From positions 1-14,211 of the forward strand of contig JAADIO010000072.1 in the NCBI GenBank assembly GCA_013151235.1: a stretch of DNA of 14,211 nt, written 5' to 3'. This document shows, one piece after another, positions 921-13,123 of the stretch. Position 1 is the first letter of the stretch, and the number at the start of each line of letters is the position of its first letter. The position numbers and the translations under genes were made by a program. The notes under the pieces are model-generated. The model was not told the DNA's origin. It ran no database searches and worked only from the letters and a program-made list of their open reading frames with translations. The DNA is from Deltaproteobacteria bacterium. Lineage in GTDB: Bacteria; CG2-30-53-67.

Positions 921-940
921 AGACCTGACACTTTACAGGT
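921..940 (+). repeat. Imperfect direct repeat, right copy flanking mazEF
   Basis: AGACCTGACACTTTACAGGT is the partner of the copy at 198-217 (16 of 20 identical). Its last base is also the last base of the stop codon of the convergent 5-oxoprolinase gene, so that gene's 3' end lies exactly at the repeat edge. Confidence 0.5.
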
Positions 941-3900
941 TATCCCTGCTGTTCGTCCGTTTTACCGAATCCTCCCCCTCCGGGTGTCTTCAGGAGAATC
1001 GAATCTCCGGCCTCAAGATGGAGGGCCACGCGATGGGGCAGCTCTTCAATCGTTCCGTCGGCCCGGCAGAGCCGGTTCACTCCCCGCTGCCCGCTTCCTC
1101 CCCCGGCCATGCCGTAGGGAGGGATCTTCCGCCGTTCCGAAAGGATCGAGAGGGTGGCCGGTTTTTGAAAGCCGATCTTCCGGATGACCCCGTTGCCTCC
1201 GGGGAACTTCCCGTCTCCTCCGGAGCCTTTCCGAAGCGTAAATCGACGAAGCCGGACACCGGGGTGCCGGACTTCAAGAATTTCCGGGTCGGTGATCCGG
1301 GTATTGGTCATATGGACCTGGACCCCGGAGGCGCCGGGACAGCCGTCGAGAGCACCCGATCCTCCCGCAACGGTTTCATAGTATGGAGACTCCCCCTCCA
1401 CCTCGAAAAGGAGATTGTTCATTGTCCCCTGGGAGGCGCCGGCTACCCCGAGGGCCCCGAGGAGGAGATCAACGACCCGCTGGGAGGTTTCCACATTCCC
1501 CGTGGCCACGGGTGCGGGGAAGGGAGGATTGAGGATCGATCCTTCCGGTACACGGAGAGTGATCGGCCGGAGGCAGCCGCTGTTCAGGGGGATGTCGCCG
1601 CAGGTGAGGGTGCGGACAACGTAGAGGACGGCGGAACGGGTGACCGAGAGGGGGGTATTGAGGTTATCTTCACGGTGCCGGGCGCCGGTTCCCGCAAAGT
1701 CAATGATCGCCGTCACTGTGGAGGGGGGACGCTCACCGCCCCGGATCTCGATCCTGACCCGAAGGGGGGTCCCGTCGTCGAGACGATCTTCGAAGGAAGC
1801 AATGAAGGGATCCTTTTTCAGGAGGAATTTCAGCAGGGCCTGCTGCACGGAGAATTCGGCATTGTCCTGTATATAATCCATATACCGGCGCACCGTCTTC
1901 CATCCATAGCGACGGATCATCCGCTGAAGTTCGCCGACCCCCTTGTGGCAGGCGGCGATCTGTGCCTGGAGATCGAAGATCCGCTCTTCCACGTTCCGGA
2001 CGGGACGGGGGGCGTCGGACAGAAGACGGGTCAGTTCGGCCTCCCGGAAGTGCCCTTTTCGGACCAGCAGAAAGTCATCAATCAGGACTCCTTCGTCGCT
2101 CAGGTCCCGGGCCTTGACCGGCATGGAGCCTGGAGCGGCCCCGCCGATGTCGGCATGGTGCCCGCGGGCGGCTGTGAAAAACCGGATCTCCCCCTCCCGG
2201 GAGAAGACGGGGCAGATCACCGTCGTATCGGGAAGATGGGAGCCTCCCTTATAGGGGTTGTTCGTCAGATAGAGATCTCCCGGTTGCATCCTTCCTTTCC
2301 GGTCGGCGAGGACGGCCTTGACGGTATCTCCCATCGAACCGAGATGAACGGGGATGTGGGGGGCGTTGGCGACCAGACCGCCCGATGCGTCAAAAACGGC
2401 ACAGGAAAAATCGAGACGTTCCTTGATATTGACGGAATGTGCCGTATTCCGCAGGGTATGACCCATCTCGCCGGCCACCGACATGAAGAGATTGTTGAAG
2501 ACCTCGAGAAGGACCGGGTCGGGACCTCTGCTCGTCACCGAGGCCGGGATCCTGCACCGGGACACCCTGTCGGCGAGGACAACTCCGTCGGACAGGACCG
2601 TTGCCTCAAAGCCCGTCTCCACCAGAAAGGTCGTATGGGGATCGACGACAAAGGCGGGTCCTTCGATCCGGGTCCCCGCGGGAAGGTCTTTTCGTAGATA
2701 GACGGGAGCTTTGATCGTTCCTTTCTCGTCATGGAAGGTCTGAAAGGAGACCGCCTCCGCCCGGTGTTTCCTGTCCGCCGGATGCACGGGACCGGGGGGA
2801 AAGAATTCCTCTTCTTCTTCTCCTTCCACGCGGAGATGGACCACCTCCAGGGAACCTTCGGCAGGGACGAATCCGAAGATTTTTTCATACCGCGTACAAA
2901 ATTCGGTAACCGTCTTTTCATATCCGCCGAAGGGGACGGGGATGAAATTTTCCGTGCCGCGCTGCCGCAGGTCGATCCATCGATGGATCGAATAGGCCGT
3001 TTTCCCGGCCGGTTTGCCGGAAAGGTTCCGTTCCAACACCCGGTAGCGCTCTTCCAGCGCCTCGTATCCTTTCGGACCAAAGGGTTCAAGAAGGGTGGCC
3101 TCCGCCTGCACCGTAGGTCGGGCCAGACCGATGCCGTAGGCGGACATGAGACTGCTCAGGGGATGAAAAACCACCCGGTTGATTTCGAGGAGATCGGCCA
3201 CACGGCAGGCATGCTGCCCTCCCGCCCCGCCGAAGCAGACGAGGGCATCGTTCCGGACGTCCACCCCGCGGGAAACGGAGATCTCACGGATTGCCAGGGC
3301 CATCTTTTCGTCTGCAATCCGGAGAAACCCGAGGGCGGTCTCCCGGACCGAAAGATTTCGATCCAGGGTGGTATTGATTCGCTCCGTCATCTCTTCAAAG
3401 GATCGAAGAGAGGCCGTGACATCCAGTCCCGACTTCCGGTCGGCGCCGAAGGTCTTCGGAAAGGCGTCCGCTATGATCCTCCCCGTTACAAGGTTGGCGT
3501 CCGTTACGGTGAGGGGACCGCCGAAACCGTAACAGGCGGGTCCGGGATCGGCGCCTGCCGATTCCGGGCCGACCCGTATCTTTTGTCCATCAAACCAGAG
3601 GACGGACCCCCCGCCGGAGGCGACAGACACAATGTTGAGCATCTCCGTGGAAAGTTCAACGCCGCCGACCTCCCGTTCAAAGCACTTTTCGAACTCCCCG
3701 TCAAAACGGCAGATATCGGTGGAGGTTCCTCCCATATCGAAACCGATGACACCGGCCGCACCCGCCTGCCGTGCGGCCTCGGCCACGGCGATGACCCCGC
3801 CTGCCGGTCCCGAAAAAAGGGCGTTCCTCCCATGGAAGTGATCCGGGCTCACCAGCCCCCCTGCGCTGACCATGAATTCGATCGGGATCGTTCCCGTCGC

Positions 3901-4570
3901 CTTCCGGATCTCCTGCAGGTGCCGATCGATCACCGGACTGAGATAGGCATCGACGACCGTACTCCGTCCCCGGCCGACGATCTTGATCCTGTTCATGGTC
4001 TCATGGGAGAGATAGATATTCGAAAATCCGGACTTTGCCGATCTCCTCTTCGTGGACCGGGTTTTTCCAGGCATGGAGGCAGACCACGGCCACGGCATCG
4101 ATCCGCTCTTGCTCCAGGCGCTCCAGGATCGTGCCGAGACACTCCCGCCGGAGGGGCTCCTCCACCTCCCCCGCGGCATTGATTCGCTCACGAACCTCCA
4201 GAACAAGATCGTAAAGGACCGACGGTTTCCGTATGCAGAGTTCGAAGATCGAAGGGCGGCTCTGGTTCCCGATCTCCAGCAGGTCGGCGAATCCCGCCGT
4301 GATCAAAAGCGCCACCCGTCCCCCCTTGTGTTCTAAAAGGGCGTTCGTGGCCACGGTTGTCCCGAAACGGATCCCTTCAATCCGGTCGGCCGGGAGAACG
4401 ACTTCCGGTGGAAGACCGAGAAGACGGCGGATTCCCTCAATCGATGCCGAGGGATAGTCCGGTGACGAAGAGAGGAGCTTTGTTACATGGAGTTTTCCCG
4501 AAGGATCGCGCCCGATCACATCTGTAAAGGTCCCCCCCTGATCGACGGCGAATCTCCATTTCGAAGTCAT
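940..4570 (-). pseudogene. 5-oxoprolinase (hydantoinase A/B fusion), frameshifted
   Basis: This gene encodes a fused HyuA-HyuB protein of the ATP-dependent 5-oxoprolinase type, which opens 5-oxo-L-proline to glutamate in the cytoplasm. Reading starts at the ATG at 4570 (GGAGAG just upstream), with VDQGGTFTDV near residue 9 and FGTTVATNALLEHKGG. After the frameshift at about 4036 come FDMGGTSTDICRF, GPAGGV, GPESAGADPGPACYG, FGGAGGQHAC, and then the HyuB half from about 2520 with [53 protein letters not shown] and a C-terminal PGGGGFG. The reconstructed length of roughly 1,210 residues is close to the single-chain eukaryotic-type enzyme (about 1,290). The two parts are in different frames: the upstream part ends at a TGA near 3995 and the rest is open to 940. 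Only this one lesion is seen. A related hydantoinase specificity is possible, but similarity to OPLAH is strong along the whole chain. Confidence 0.88.
4030..4040 (-). other. Frameshift point in the 5-oxoprolinase gene
   Basis: On the minus strand the upstream frame reads HEEEIGKV and the downstream frame reads GFSNIYLSHE. Compared with the OPLAH pattern HE-x12-GF spacing as I remember it, four codons are missing and one stray base remains, so an 11-bp deletion fits better than a single inserted A in the AAA run at 4034-4036. Without correction the N-terminal 178 residues terminate about 13 codons later. Confidence 0.75.
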
Positions 4571-4733
4571 TTTATCTCTCCGTTCTTTCTGTGGGCATGT
4601 TCCGCGTTTTCCGGTCCGGTGATCGGCAGCCTGCATTCTAACCATTTCCCGGCGCGACGACAAGCCGGAAACATTTTCTCCGCTCCGTGCCGCATTTTCG
4701 GGAAGAAAACAGTCACAGATGGAAGATACGACA

Positions 4734-4779
4734 GTGCAATTTGCACGATATGGGTAAATTATTACATAGACCATTGGTC
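4734..4779. promoter_or_regulatory. Two short palindromes upstream of the 5-oxoprolinase gene
   Basis: GTGCAATTTGCAC (4734-4746, perfect 6-bp arms) and GACCATTGGTC (4769-4779, perfect 5-bp arms) lie 165-210 bp before the minus-strand start. Between them the minus strand holds AATAAT (4763-4758), a possible -10 element, but no convincing -35. They are candidate operators for the 5-oxoprolinase gene; the function is inference. The remaining part of the 4571-5084 intergenic stretch shows no gene I can support. Confidence 0.3.
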
Positions 4780-5084
4780 CATTCCCGTCGAGATCCGGCA
4801 TGCCGGGCGCTTCATGCAACTATTGTCTTTTAAATCAATAAGATATGAGATGTTTTCCGGTGTTGGAAGGCCGTGATCAAGAGGGCTTCCTGATTCCGTG
4901 TCTGCACGATTGTATCATGCAGGCCTCCTGACGGATGCGCGGGACATGCCGGCGATTTTGTTTATTGATTTTGTCAAGAAAACGGGAACGAAGCGTCCAT
5001 TTCTTTTCCTATCGATTTAATCCACAATTAAATTCTTCGGGATGTTCTCCCGAATATCCGGGCTTCAGTTTGGTCCGGCTGTAC

Positions 5085-5101
5085 TTTATCAATATGATAA
5101 A
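5085..5101 (+). promoter_or_regulatory. Candidate enhancer-binding-protein site (palindrome)
   Basis: TTTATCAATATGATAAA is a perfect inverted repeat with 7-bp arms and a 3-bp centre. It is centred about 76 bp upstream of the start point expected from the sigma-54 element at 5142-5158, the usual neighbourhood of an upstream activator site, and an A/T-rich stretch (5101-5129) that could bend lies between. The palindrome is seen directly; its role is inferred. Confidence 0.5.
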
Positions 5102-5141
5102 CAAAAAAATATTTATAAAAATCAACAAGATCGATGATCCC

Positions 5142-5158
5142 TTGGCATGTTGTTTGCT
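5142..5158 (+). promoter_or_regulatory. Sigma-54 (RpoN) promoter of the sulfur operon
   Basis: TTGGCATGTTGTTTGCT matches the sigma-54 consensus YTGGCACG-N4-TTGCW at every defined position except one (T instead of C in GGCAC). The -24 GG (5144-5145) and -12 GC (5156-5157) have the required spacing of 12 bp between their first bases. Transcription should start near 5169, giving a leader of about 53 nt to the ATG at 5222 with its GAGGAG site at 5211-5216. Confidence 0.7.
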
Positions 5159-5221
5159 GTTTCAATGGTCCGTTGATGTGAATGGGGTCAGTGTAAACCG
5201 GTATTGTCGCGAGGAGATTTT

Positions 5222-5626
5222 ATGAGTGAACAAGACAGAAAGATTGCAATCATCCTCTCATCGGAGGACTACGCCAAGATACAGCTTGCCGGAATGATCG
5301 CTTCGGTGGCTGCCGTATCGAGTATCGAGGTACTCATCTTCGTTTCAATGGGGGCCGTCCGAAAATTCAGGAAGGGGATCACGGACGATGAACGATTCAC
5401 GGGATCCGATTTTTCAAAGGTCCTGAGGGAGAAAAAGGTTCCGCCCTATCTTGATCTTTTCAAGCAGGCCAGGGAGTTCGGCGATGCGAAGATCTATGCC
5501 TGCCCCATGGCCATGGAGGTCTTGGAGATGACGAAAGAGGATCTGGAAGAGGATATTTTCGACGAGATCGCCGGGATGACGAAGTTTCTCGTCGATGCCG
5601 ATGGATACAATATTATTAATCTGTAG
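5222..5626 (+). CDS. DsrE-family sulfur-relay protein (DsrE2-like)
   Basis: This 134-residue protein has the DsrE/DsrF-like fold pattern: an N-terminal strand KIAIILSSED, a hydrophobic helix with QLAGMIASVAAV, a second strand EVLIFVSMGAV, and the signature YACPMAMEVLEMTKEDLEED near residues 92-111. Its single cysteine, Cys94, lies in that signature, where DsrE2-type proteins carry the persulfide-binding cysteine. Such proteins are thought to accept or donate sulfane sulfur together with TusA. The ATG at 5222 is chosen because GAGGAG at 5211-5216 precedes it; the upstream in-frame start at 5204 has no such site. It is the first gene after a sigma-54-like promoter and lies 26 nt before tusA. 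DsrE2 proteins are often longer or membrane-linked, and I see no membrane anchor here, so it is probably soluble. Confidence 0.82.
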   Translation: MSEQDRKIAIILSSEDYAKIQLAGMIASVAAVSSIEVLIFVSMGAVRKFRKGITDDERFTGSDFSKVLREKKVPPYLDLFKQAREFGDAKIYACPMAMEVLEMTKEDLEEDIFDEIAGMTKFLVDADGYNIINL

Positions 5627-5652: not shown

Positions 5653-5889
5653 ATGGATGCTGCAATTAACACAAGCGTGGATGCACGGGATTCTTACTGT
5701 CCGGGGCCGCTGATGGAACTGATCCGGACCATGAAAAGGGAACCGGTCGGTTCGGTGATTGAAATCCTCTCTTCGGACCAGGGGTCGGCAAAGGATATTC
5801 CGGAGTGGATCCACAAGGTGGGACACGAGTATCTCCGCACCGAAGAGAAGGAAGGGTTCTGGAGTATTCTGGTGAAGAAAGCCAAATAG
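5653..5889 (+). CDS. TusA-family sulfur carrier protein
   Basis: This 78-residue protein is a TusA/SirA-like sulfurtransferase. The defining Cys-Pro-x-Pro motif is present as YCPGPLMELIRTMK, with Cys16 as its only cysteine, following the usual D-x-R strand (SVDARDSYCPGP). The rest follows the family: GSVIEILSSDQGSAKDIPEWIHKVGHE, then a final strand ending WSILVKKAK. TusA proteins carry a persulfide on the CPxP cysteine and hand it to partners. The ATG follows AGGAGG at 5641-5646. Its location between a DsrE-like gene and an SQR gene indicates a role in sulfur oxidation or sulfane-sulfur trafficking rather than tRNA thiolation, since no tRNA-thiolation partner is seen here. The next gene is 170 nt away, across a hairpin, but on the same strand with no terminator. 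Confidence 0.93.
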   Translation: MDAAINTSVDARDSYCPGPLMELIRTMKREPVGSVIEILSSDQGSAKDIPEWIHKVGHEYLRTEEKEGFWSILVKKAK

Positions 5890-6059: not shown

Positions 6060-7199
6060 ATGGGAAAGCGGATTGTAATCATTGGGGGAGGGACCGGCGG
6101 GACCATTGTCGCCAACCTCCTTGCACAGGGGCTGCGAACCGAGATGCGTCGCGGTGACGTAACGGTCAACATGCTCAGCGCTTCGGACAAACATGTCTAC
6201 CAGCCGGGTTTTATGTATGTTGCCTTCGGACGGATGCAGGACGATGAAATCATTCGGGATCAGCGGAGTATTCTCGACTCACTGGTCAACCTCTACGTCG
6301 ATCCCGCTGTAAAGATCGATATCGAGGGGCAGACGGTCACGGCAAAAAGCGGCCGATCCTTCCCCTACGATTATCTGGTCATTGCGACCGGTTCCAGGAT
6401 CGTCCCCGAGGAGATCCCCGGCCTCAAAGAGGGGGCGCATTGGTTCTACGACCTTCAAGGAGCCAAGAAGCTCCGGAAAGCGCTAAAGGAATTCGAGGGA
6501 GGCCGGATCGTCATCGCCGTGGGCGTTCCCCACAAATGTCCCGTGGCCCCGCTGGAAGTTACCTTCATGATCGACGACCTTTTCTCCAACAGCCATCTCA
6601 AAGGAAAATACGAACTCTTTTACACCTACCCCATCGCCCGCGTTCATGCACTGGAGCCGGTGGCACACTGGGCGGTCAAGGCCTTCGAGCGAAGGGGAAT
6701 TCAGTATGAGACCTTTTTCAATATTGAGAAAGTAGACCCGGAGAAGAAGCAGCTTCACAGCGAAGAGGGGTCCGTCATCGACTATGACCTTCTGATTGCC
6801 ATCCCCCCCCACAAGGGCGCCCCGCTGATTGAAGACTCCGGCCTCGGAGCCGACGGCTGGATTCCCACGGACAAACATACCCTGACCATGAAAGGGAAGG
6901 AAAATGTCTTCGTCGTGGGAGACACGACCAATATCCCCATCAGCAAGGCCGGTTCCACCACCCACTTCGAAGCGGACACCGCAGCGGAATCCCTGATCTG
7001 CCTGATCAAAGAAGGATGTCCGGGCCGCAGATACGACGGGAAGGTCTTCTGCTTCGTGGAAACCGGCATGGACAAGGGAACTTATGTCTGGTTCAACTAT
7101 AACACGCCGCCGAATCCAGGGGAGCCGTCCCAGATGATTCACTGGTTCAAGCTGGCCTACAATCGCCTCTACTGGCTGAGTGCACGGGGCATACTCTAA
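6060..7199 (+). CDS. Sulfide:quinone oxidoreductase-family flavoprotein
   Basis: This 379-residue protein has the FAD-dependent disulfide-reductase fold of sulfide:quinone oxidoreductases, which oxidise sulfide to zero-valent sulfur and reduce membrane quinone. The FAD-binding GGGTGG motif is at residues 9-14, ATGSRIVPEEIPG at 109-121, and ENVFVVGDTTNIPISKAGS at 281-299 is the second FAD contact. Cys160 in VPHKCPVAPLE and Cys331 in KVFCFVETG sit where the redox-active pair is expected; the third cysteine of many SQRs, near 130, is absent (WFYD). The C-terminal tail MIHWFKLAYNRLYWL is amphipathic and may dock in the membrane, since there is no transmembrane helix. The ATG at 6060 follows GGAGGA at 6045-6050. 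The stop is 13 nt before the DUF1641 gene. A related quinone-linked flavoprotein using another sulfur donor cannot be ruled out. Confidence 0.88.
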   Translation: MGKRIVIIGGGTGGTIVANLLAQGLRTEMRRGDVTVNMLSASDKHVYQPGFMYVAFGRMQDDEIIRDQRSILDSLVNLYVDPAVKIDIEGQTVTAKSGRSFPYDYLVIATGSRIVPEEIPGLKEGAHWFYDLQGAKKLRKALKEFEGGRIVIAVGVPHKCPVAPLEVTFMIDDLFSNSHLKGKYELFYTYPIARVHALEPVAHWAVKAFERRGIQYETFFNIEKVDPEKKQLHSEEGSVIDYDLLIAIPPHKGAPLIEDSGLGADGWIPTDKHTLTMKGKENVFVVGDTTNIPISKAGSTTHFEADTAAESLICLIKEGCPGRRYDGKVFCFVETGMDKGTYVWFNYNTPPNPGEPSQMIHWFKLAYNRLYWLSARGIL

Positions 7200-7212: not shown

Positions 7213-7998
7213 ATGTCCAAGAAGAATGGAGGGATGCAGGTGGTGGATGCACCTTCGGCGGATCTCGGGAATGCCGCTGCCGCCGATGCGCGTATGAATC
7301 AGGCGAGCAGTCTTGCAGAGGTTGCCGAGATGGTCCGGGCCTATCGGGATTCGCAGACCGACCCCATGATTGAGCGGATGGCCGCCATGATGGAACCCTT
7401 GGCAGCCCTGGCCGACCAGGTGGCGAAGCCCGAAGTGTTCCAGGCCGTGCAGGAGTCGGTTCGCACCCTGACCGAGCTGCATCAAAGCGGTTCGCTCAAC
7501 GATCTCAAAGAGATGGCCCTTTTCGCCAGCGCCGCCAAGAACTCCATGGGAGAGAGCGTTATTACGCGAATGGCTGCCAACATGGAAACAATGATGGCGC
7601 TGATGGATGAGATGGCCAAGGCGGACTTGATGCGGGCCATGCCGGCCATCGAGGAACTGATCAACAGCGGCAGTCTTGAGATTCTGGCCCAGATGGCAAC
7701 GTTTCTCGGATCGACCACACATGCTTTTACCGACAGCATCGTCGAACGGATGCTGACCATGTTCGAAAACATGGTCAGCCGCCTTACGAACCCCCAGATT
7801 CAGGATCTGATCGGCGCAGCGGTGGAAAGCGCGCAGGAGACCATGAACGAGATGAAGCAGAAACCCGAAAAAGCGGGGATGCTGGCACTCTGGAAAGCGG
7901 CGCGGGATCCCATGGTACAAAAAAGTCTGCTCTTTGTTATGGACTTTGCCAAGAACTTCCACAAGAGCCTGATCTCGGAGACCGGCCCCAGGCTGTGA
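7213..7998 (+). CDS. DUF1641-family protein, SQR partner
   Basis: This 261-residue protein matches the DUF1641 type of soluble, Met- and Ala-rich helical proteins encoded next to SQR-like genes; its biochemical role is unknown to me. It has no cysteine, no signal peptide and no membrane span. Internal repeats are visible: MIERMAAMMEPLAALADQVA (52-71), VITRMAANMETMMALMDEMA (116-135) and IVERMLTMFENMVSRL (176-191), with SGSLNDLKEMALFAS (92-106) paralleled by SGSLEILAQMATFLG (152-166). The unit is about 60 residues long and present about two and a half to three times. The start follows GGGAGG at 7201-7206, and the gene is followed by the operon terminator. It may be a scaffold or adaptor holding SQR at the membrane or binding TusA/DsrE; this is inference from position only. 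Confidence 0.8.
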   Translation: MSKKNGGMQVVDAPSADLGNAAAADARMNQASSLAEVAEMVRAYRDSQTDPMIERMAAMMEPLAALADQVAKPEVFQAVQESVRTLTELHQSGSLNDLKEMALFASAAKNSMGESVITRMAANMETMMALMDEMAKADLMRAMPAIEELINSGSLEILAQMATFLGSTTHAFTDSIVERMLTMFENMVSRLTNPQIQDLIGAAVESAQETMNEMKQKPEKAGMLALWKAARDPMVQKSLLFVMDFAKNFHKSLISETGPRL

Positions 7999-8039
7999 TG
8001 TTTTGCCGGTGGATCCCTTGCAATTCTGTTCCCCCCGGT

Positions 8040-8068
8040 CCCGGGCAGAGATGCCCGGGGCTTTTTTT
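8040..8068 (+). terminator. Intrinsic terminator of the sulfur operon
   Basis: CCCGGGCA, loop GAGA, TGCCCGGG form a perfect 8-bp GC-rich stem, followed by GC and seven Ts. It lies 42 nt after the DUF1641 stop and just before the convergent antiporter stop; the reverse direction lacks a T-run, so it serves the plus strand. Confidence 0.92.
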
Positions 8069-12630: not shown

Positions 12631-12711
12631 CCGTTCTTGCGGTTCGGTCGGCTCACCATGCCCGGAAAGTTTAATGGACCGTTCGTGGTGAGCTTGTCGA
12701 ACCATGAACGG
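12631..12711. repeat. REP-like inverted repeat pair
   Basis: The 12679-12711 element has arms CCGTTCGTGGT and ACCATGAACGG (one G-T mismatch) around the core GAGCTTGTCGA. An inverted degenerate copy lies at 12631-12660 (GGTTCGGTCGGCTCACCATG, compare GGTTCGACAAGCTCACCACG on the reverse of the second). The GAGCTTGTCGA core resembles a dispersed intergenic repeat I recall from many Proteobacteria. The pair could form a transcript hairpin between the two genes. The ATG at 12704 lies inside the repeat. Confidence 0.6.
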
Positions 12712-12733
12712 AATCCGGAGGGTTGATGTAATC

Positions 12734-13123
12734 ATGTTTTTTGCCCGCTCAAAAACCGATGAGGAAAAGATCAAAAAGGACATCCGTGTCCTGGCCGATC
12801 TGACCGAGGTCTACTGCAAAAAGAAACATGCCGGGGCGGAACGCACCCCCATCATCGCAAAGGGGAGGATCTCCGGCTATGGTGATTTGCTGAAAGTCTC
12901 CCTCTGTCCCGACTGTACAAAACTGGTTCTTCACGGTGCCGTGAAACGGATTCAATGCCCCATGAACCCCAAACCGGAGTGCAGGAGATGCCCCGAGCAC
13001 TGTTATCACCCGCGGTATCGGGACCAGGTCCGGGAAGTCATGCGTTTTGCCTGGCGTTATCTCCTCTTGCGGGGACGGATCGACCTCGTTTTCAAACACC
13101 TGTACGGCCGGGGAGGTCCTTAA
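12734..13123 (+). CDS. YgbA_NO family protein (nitrous-oxide/NO-associated)
   Basis: This 129-residue protein resembles E. coli YgbA, a cysteine-rich protein whose gene is NO-responsive there (NsrR regulon). It has helix LADLTEVYCKKKH (20-32), Cys58-x2-Cys61, a central IQCPMNPKPECRRCPEHCYH region (Cys75, 83, 86, 90), and YRDQVREVMRFAWRYLLL (95-112); the CxxCPxHCYxxxYRxxxREVMR pattern is the family hallmark. Function is not known; cysteine clusters suggest a metal or Fe-S site. The ATG at 12734 is preferred over that at 12704, which sits inside a repeat; GGAGGG at 12717-12722 lies 11-12 bp upstream, slightly long spacing. The protein is longer at the N-terminus than E. coli YgbA as I recall it. 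It likely follows the CRP/FNR-controlled promoter of the preceding gene. Confidence 0.85.
   Translation: MFFARSKTDEEKIKKDIRVLADLTEVYCKKKHAGAERTPIIAKGRISGYGDLLKVSLCPDCTKLVLHGAVKRIQCPMNPKPECRRCPEHCYHPRYRDQVREVMRFAWRYLLLRGRIDLVFKHLYGRGGP

Follow-up and report, generated by a model that had tools for sequence, protein, structure and literature searches.

A probable sigma-54 promoter of a DsrE-TusA-SQR operon and a candidate two-component activator in an uncultured deltaproteobacterial lineage

The DsrE-TusA-SQR-DUF1641 operon and its −24/−12 element

The window, as we call the whole 14,211-nt stretch analysed here, comes from a 2.62-Mb genome in 73 contigs (G000) and carries on its plus strand an operon that begins with a DsrE-family protein of 134 aa (5222–5626; PF13686, PF02635), preceded by a Shine-Dalgarno-like GAGGAG at 5211–5216. 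This gene is followed by a TusA-type sulfur carrier of 78 aa with a CPGP motif (5653–5889; PF01206), an SQR-like flavoprotein of 379 aa (6060–7199) and, as last gene, a DUF1641 protein (7213–7998), after which an intrinsic-terminator-like hairpin with a T run lies at 8037–8062 on the same strand. The closest solved relatives of the flavoprotein are sulfide:quinone oxidoreductases, the NCBIfam model it comes nearest to, with a score below cut-off, is that of type III SQR, and the cysteines of its KCPVAP and KVFC motifs align with those of KCAGAP and YTSC in human SQOR, so that the redox-active cysteine pair of sulfide:quinone oxidoreductases appears to be in place. Elsewhere in the window a MazE-like antitoxin gene is followed by a PemK/MazF-like toxin gene (227–882, a type II toxin-antitoxin pair), and a YgbA_NO-family protein (nitrous oxide-stimulated promoter family) is encoded at 12704–13123, unlinked to the sulfur operon. 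At 940–4819 on the minus strand the N-terminal domain of Hydantoinase A and the Hydantoinase A/B domains are split between overlapping reading frames, suggesting a frameshift, either real or an assembly error. The sole Rfam match was a tRNA, and folding of the operon leader gave no structure above chance.

Upstream of dsrE, the plus strand bears the −24/−12 element TTGGCATGTTGTTTGCT at 5142–5158, identified from its letters, its match to the strict pattern and its conservation, with GG at 5144–5145 and GC at 5156–5157, a step of 12 bp. It stands 64 bp from the dsrE start, whose first ATG is at 5222, and its position predicts a transcription start near 5169. The element is the sole site in the window that matches TGGCA-N6-TTGC with 0 mismatches, and when the 200 bp preceding dsrE were shuffled by dinucleotides, 0.03% of the shuffles produced an equally good box. 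Pattern searches of the whole genome with a strict sigma-54 pattern (TGGCAY-N5-TTGCW) returned 31 sites, against 5 for the same pattern reversed, and many of the strict sites listed precede typical RpoN targets, namely PII genes, an ammonium transporter, flagellar genes and pilins, as read by eye from the translations. Two divergent sigma-54 boxes were also seen between multihaem cytochrome genes and a molybdoenzyme/ferredoxin cluster (G000:C1:18592-18928). The genome encodes one rpoN (204 bits to Sigma54_DBD) and about 24 strong enhancer-binding proteins (EBPs).

To ask how far the box extends beyond this locus, we compared the family operons (n = 4), these being the window copy and a second copy on contig C55 of the same genome (L069), together with the operons of two genomes of the sister genus, G002 (L070) and G004 (L071), each of which has one copy in a neighbourhood other than those of G000. 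In the G004 operon an additional TusA-like gene (L071:8839-9171) separates tusA from sqr. Scored out of 13, with 11 or more counted as a box, all four have one upstream of dsrE at 11–12, with the sequences TTGGCATGTTGTTTGCT (window), TTGGCATCTCCTTTGCT (C55), CTGGCACGGTTATTGCT (G002) and TTGGCATGTTTATTGCT (G004), and none of the 38 distant homologous operons with enough upstream DNA (Alpha-, Gammaproteobacteria and others) reaches 11. The Fisher P for 4/4 against 0/38 is ∼9e-6, a value to be read with fewer than four independent family cases in mind, as G002 and G004 form one related pair and the two G000 copies another. Outside the box, the upstream DNA is largely unalignable between these pairs. 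The contrast between the family and the distant operons therefore indicates that the box of the sulfur operon is real and, by this comparison, specific to this lineage.

GG and GC 12 bp apart, an rpoN gene, at least one EBP and conservation upstream of orthologous genes are among the marks by which an RpoN promoter is recognised, and these four are found here. We consider 5142–5158 very probably a functional sigma-54 promoter of the dsrE-tusA-sqr-DUF1641 operon. This bears out the preliminary description, which had read a sigma-54 promoter driving a DsrE-TusA-SQR operon (to which DUF1641 is now added) with its letters, coordinates and 12-bp step all correct, and which had made the presence of rpoN in the genome a check on that reading: rpoN, abundant EBPs and conservation across the family all support it. 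Its further proposal that the operon is switched on by a specific signal can fairly be inferred from sigma-54 biology.

A second operon copy and its kinase-EBP pair

No EBP gene is encoded in the window. The second operon copy, whose SQR is 88% identical to that of the window, lies on C55 directly downstream of a histidine kinase and an NtrC-type EBP, the latter a response regulator of 448 aa with receiver (Response_reg), AAA+ and Fis-type HTH domains. The kinase has a Cys-rich N-terminal domain that is kept in its orthologues; that of G004 (L143:4772-5848, on G004:C99) appears to have two copies of this sensor domain. An orthologous kinase-EBP pair (EBP 81% identical) also occurs in G001, a genome congeneric with G000, where it is followed by the identical promoter core TTGGCATCTCCTTTGCT and then by a YedE/YeeE-type transporter, a Psr-like molybdoenzyme, a ferredoxin and NrfD; G001 is without a close homologue of the operon's SQR. 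Set side by side, the loci G000:C55 (L069:6067-11671) and G001:C13 (L141:1506-10855) look as though sulfur modules had been exchanged behind a fixed regulator.

Orthologues of the kinase are present in every family genome with the operon (G000, G002 and G004) and in G001, and absent from G003 and G005, both of which lack the operon. Four of the 24 EBPs of G000 fit this pattern of presence, provided that the C55 EBP is counted in G004 via its kinase, as the EBP itself is not seen there because the G004 contig breaks off within the kinase gene. The C55 EBP is the only one of these found beside an operon copy. Its linkage and distribution therefore mark it out as the likeliest activator of the window copy as well, where it would act in trans, an assignment that we make tentatively and put a little short of probable.

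No convincing binding motif shared by the window and the C55, G001, G002 and G004 promoters was found. A TTCTCA motif with a spacing of ∼32 bp is present in the C55, G001, G002 and G004 promoters and not in the window; as a shared upstream activating sequence it was rejected, the TTCTCA pairs not being significant in an unbiased test (35 of 300 shuffles) and being missing from the window. Also against the assignment, the motifs found upstream in the window copy match those of none of these four promoters.

The C55 and G001 promoters share a further element, a perfect inverted repeat AATATTC-N8-GAATATT that abuts the −24 box (L069:8889-8915 and L141:7957-7983, minus strand), with its arms conserved and its spacer diverged between the two. 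Of this extended form, G000 has two perfect copies and G001 has one. The core ATTC-N8-GAAT, which lies at about −46 to −31 of both promoters, is exactly the deduced recognition sequence of SqrR (PMC9774250). G000 also has, adjoining a thioredoxin gene on C48, an ArsR-family gene whose sequence matches YgaV and SqrR chains. The likeness to SqrR/YgaV control thus consists of the exact operator at C55 and G001 and the YgaV/SqrR-like gene in G000, whereas the element is missing from the window promoter. At C55 this suggests a dual layout of a two-component system plus a repressor.

Inverted repeats upstream of the window promoter and competing accounts of its control

The window promoter has inverted repeats of its own. 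The perfect 7+3+7 repeat TTTATCAATATGATAAA (TTTATCA-ATA-TGATAAA, 5085–5101, unstranded) is centred at about −76 and spans −85 to −69; the preliminary description, which took it for the activator palindrome, gave its letters, position and centre correctly. Two more perfect and likewise unstranded repeats are TTCGGGA-TGTTC-TCCCGAA (5036–5054) and ATTTAAT-CCACA-ATTAAAT (5015–5033). In shuffles of the AT-rich 200-bp upstream region, repeats with arms of at least 7 and a loop of 0–12 arise in 32%, and those with a loop of 3 in 4%; three such repeats together are rarer (P ∼0.005). The perfect 17-mer has one copy in 2.62 Mb, is absent from the C55, G001, G002 and G004 promoters and, in the scan for palindromes near RpoN promoters that had been proposed, was found (at up to 2 mismatches) near none of the 30 other strict sigma-54 sites in G000. 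Not conserved in related genomes, which the preliminary description had itself named as grounds for refutation, present in one perfect genome copy and within chance, the palindrome is probably not the activator's landing site, and is at best possibly a site specific to this copy. As a regulon motif it is ruled out by its single perfect copy and its absence near other strict sites, and IHF, FNR and Fur readings did not fit when judged by eye against consensus sequences.

These data allow us to weigh other accounts of the promoter. If the −24/−12 box were a chance match, the operon would be read from an unrecognised promoter; the start near 5169 is a prediction and even the reversed pattern yields 5 chance sites genome-wide, but the box stands at the same place in 4/4 family operons although the DNA around it has largely diverged beyond alignment, and the plus strand upstream of dsrE showed no sigma-70-like promoter, making this account very unlikely. 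A different possibility, which we regard with some doubt, is that the window copy is sigma-54-dependent but responds to another EBP, with a site that includes the palindrome or the other repeats, such that the paralogous operons answer different signals. The three perfect 7-bp repeats with their joint P of ∼0.005, the lack in the window of the C55/G001 elements (ATTC-N8-GAAT and the TTCTCA pairs) and the two dozen other EBPs in the genome all argue for it; against it, the window copy lacks a linked EBP, and the palindrome, within chance as a single repeat, has one genomic copy and was not found close to any of the other strict sigma-54 sites. Finally, the palindrome could be the operator of an unrelated regulator, a repressor or global factor, that modulates the sigma-54 promoter. 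Its AT-rich and perfect sequence and its placement at −85 to −69 would suit such a role, and the C55 and G001 promoters do bear a different, repressor-like operator at about −49 to −28, but the palindrome has neither a known regulator nor conservation, and we consider this account improbable.

The explanation we favour as a whole, and hold to be moderately probable, combines the sigma-54 promoter, the C55 regulator acting in trans and a product that oxidises sulfide, the absence of an EBP gene from the window and the lack of a box in the distant homologous operons being counted against it. RpoN holoenzyme would be held closed at 5142–5158 until an AAA+ EBP remodels it, and the NtrC-type regulator from C55 would be the EBP that activates the window copy, its Cys-rich partner kinase presumably sensing a reduced-sulfur or redox signal. 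The operon would encode proteins that oxidise sulfide and relay the sulfur: SQR would produce sulfane sulfur, and TusA and DsrE would carry it, possibly to a Dsr system of the DsrEFH/DsrL type in the same genome. The promoter sequence and its conservation, the rpoN gene, and the EBP beside a paralogous operon with its own sigma-54 promoter are established; the transcription start, the activator of the window copy and the signal are inferred.

Dsr loci, known systems and implications

Two dsrAB loci were found in G000 (L317, G000:C19:24000-42000, and L318, G000:C16:20000-38000) and in each of four family members tested, using a profile for dsrA only (TIGR02064), with the oxidative or reductive direction judged from neighbour genes and not from a tree. 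One of the G000 loci is surrounded by DsrK, a TusD/DsrE-type subunit and a DsrL-like flavoprotein, neighbours that suggest an oxidative-type Dsr system, one that TusA and DsrE could feed.

Sigma-54-dependent activation by FisR of an operon that holds SQR was described in Cupriavidus pinatubonensis, according to the account of that 2017 work in PMC7315123, and in Acinetobacter baumannii an SQR/PDO operon is under sigma-54-dependent FisR, an EBP whose gene adjoins it (PMC7315123). In Acidithiobacillus, the sigma-54-dependent two-component systems TspS/TspR and TcsS/TcsR adjoin sulfur-oxidation clusters (PMC6335251), and in Bacillus licheniformis a DsrE, TusA and SQR cluster is controlled by a sulfide-sensing two-component system and a sulfane-sulfur repressor, YrkD/NreBC (PMC9918477). 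The preliminary description knew of no well-described case of such control, a view overtaken by FisR for SQR and by TspS/TspR for sulfur oxidation. TusA and DsrE go unmentioned in the main text of two papers on sigma-54 regulomes (PMC4641369, PMC12316311).

None of these systems is a full match. With FisR-sqr-pdo the present case shares sigma-54 control of an SQR operon, and FisR systems likewise have the EBP beside the operon; the candidate EBP here, however, contains a receiver domain and is paired with a kinase, PDO is missing from the operon while DsrE, TusA and DUF1641 are present, and the window copy is without an adjacent EBP. FisR itself is not known to be a two-component response regulator. 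The TspS/TspR-sox arrangement of Acidithiobacillus caldus resembles C55 in having a two-component system directly upstream of a sulfur cluster, while its target genes are others; of the two operon copies in G000, C55 alone has the combination of kinase, NtrC-type regulator, sigma-54 promoter and sulfur cluster, and the upstream regions examined showed no instance of the published TspR site TGTCCCAAATGGGACA. YrkD/NreBC is like the C55 layout in its DsrE-TusA-SQR cluster under a two-component system plus repressor, but its response regulator NreC is not an NtrC-type AAA+ EBP and its repressor is CstR-like, not SqrR-like. Sigma-54 control of SQR and sigma-54 two-component systems for sulfur oxidation are thus known, and what appears unusual here is the way they are combined and the seeming swap of sulfur modules downstream of a single regulator and promoter.

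A broader and rather speculative reading, which we think unlikely in its entirety, is that the kinase-EBP pair and the adjacent sigma-54 promoter form a control cassette fixed across the family, behind which different sulfur modules are plugged in (dsrE-tusA-sqr-DUF1641 in the case of G000, YedE with Psr-like genes in that of G001). With the SqrR-like operator abutting the −24 box, two sensors, the Cys-rich kinase and a persulfide-type repressor, would have to agree, and the window copy would, after duplication, have kept the box and lost or rewired the other sites.

With these data, the sulfide-oxidation genes under sigma-54 control would come to include a DsrE-TusA-SQR-DUF1641 unit, found in an uncultured lineage with two dsrAB loci, and a testable activator can be named, the Cys-rich kinase with its NtrC-type regulator. 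This control would be particular to the lineage, as the homologous operons of Alpha- and Gammaproteobacteria are without the box.
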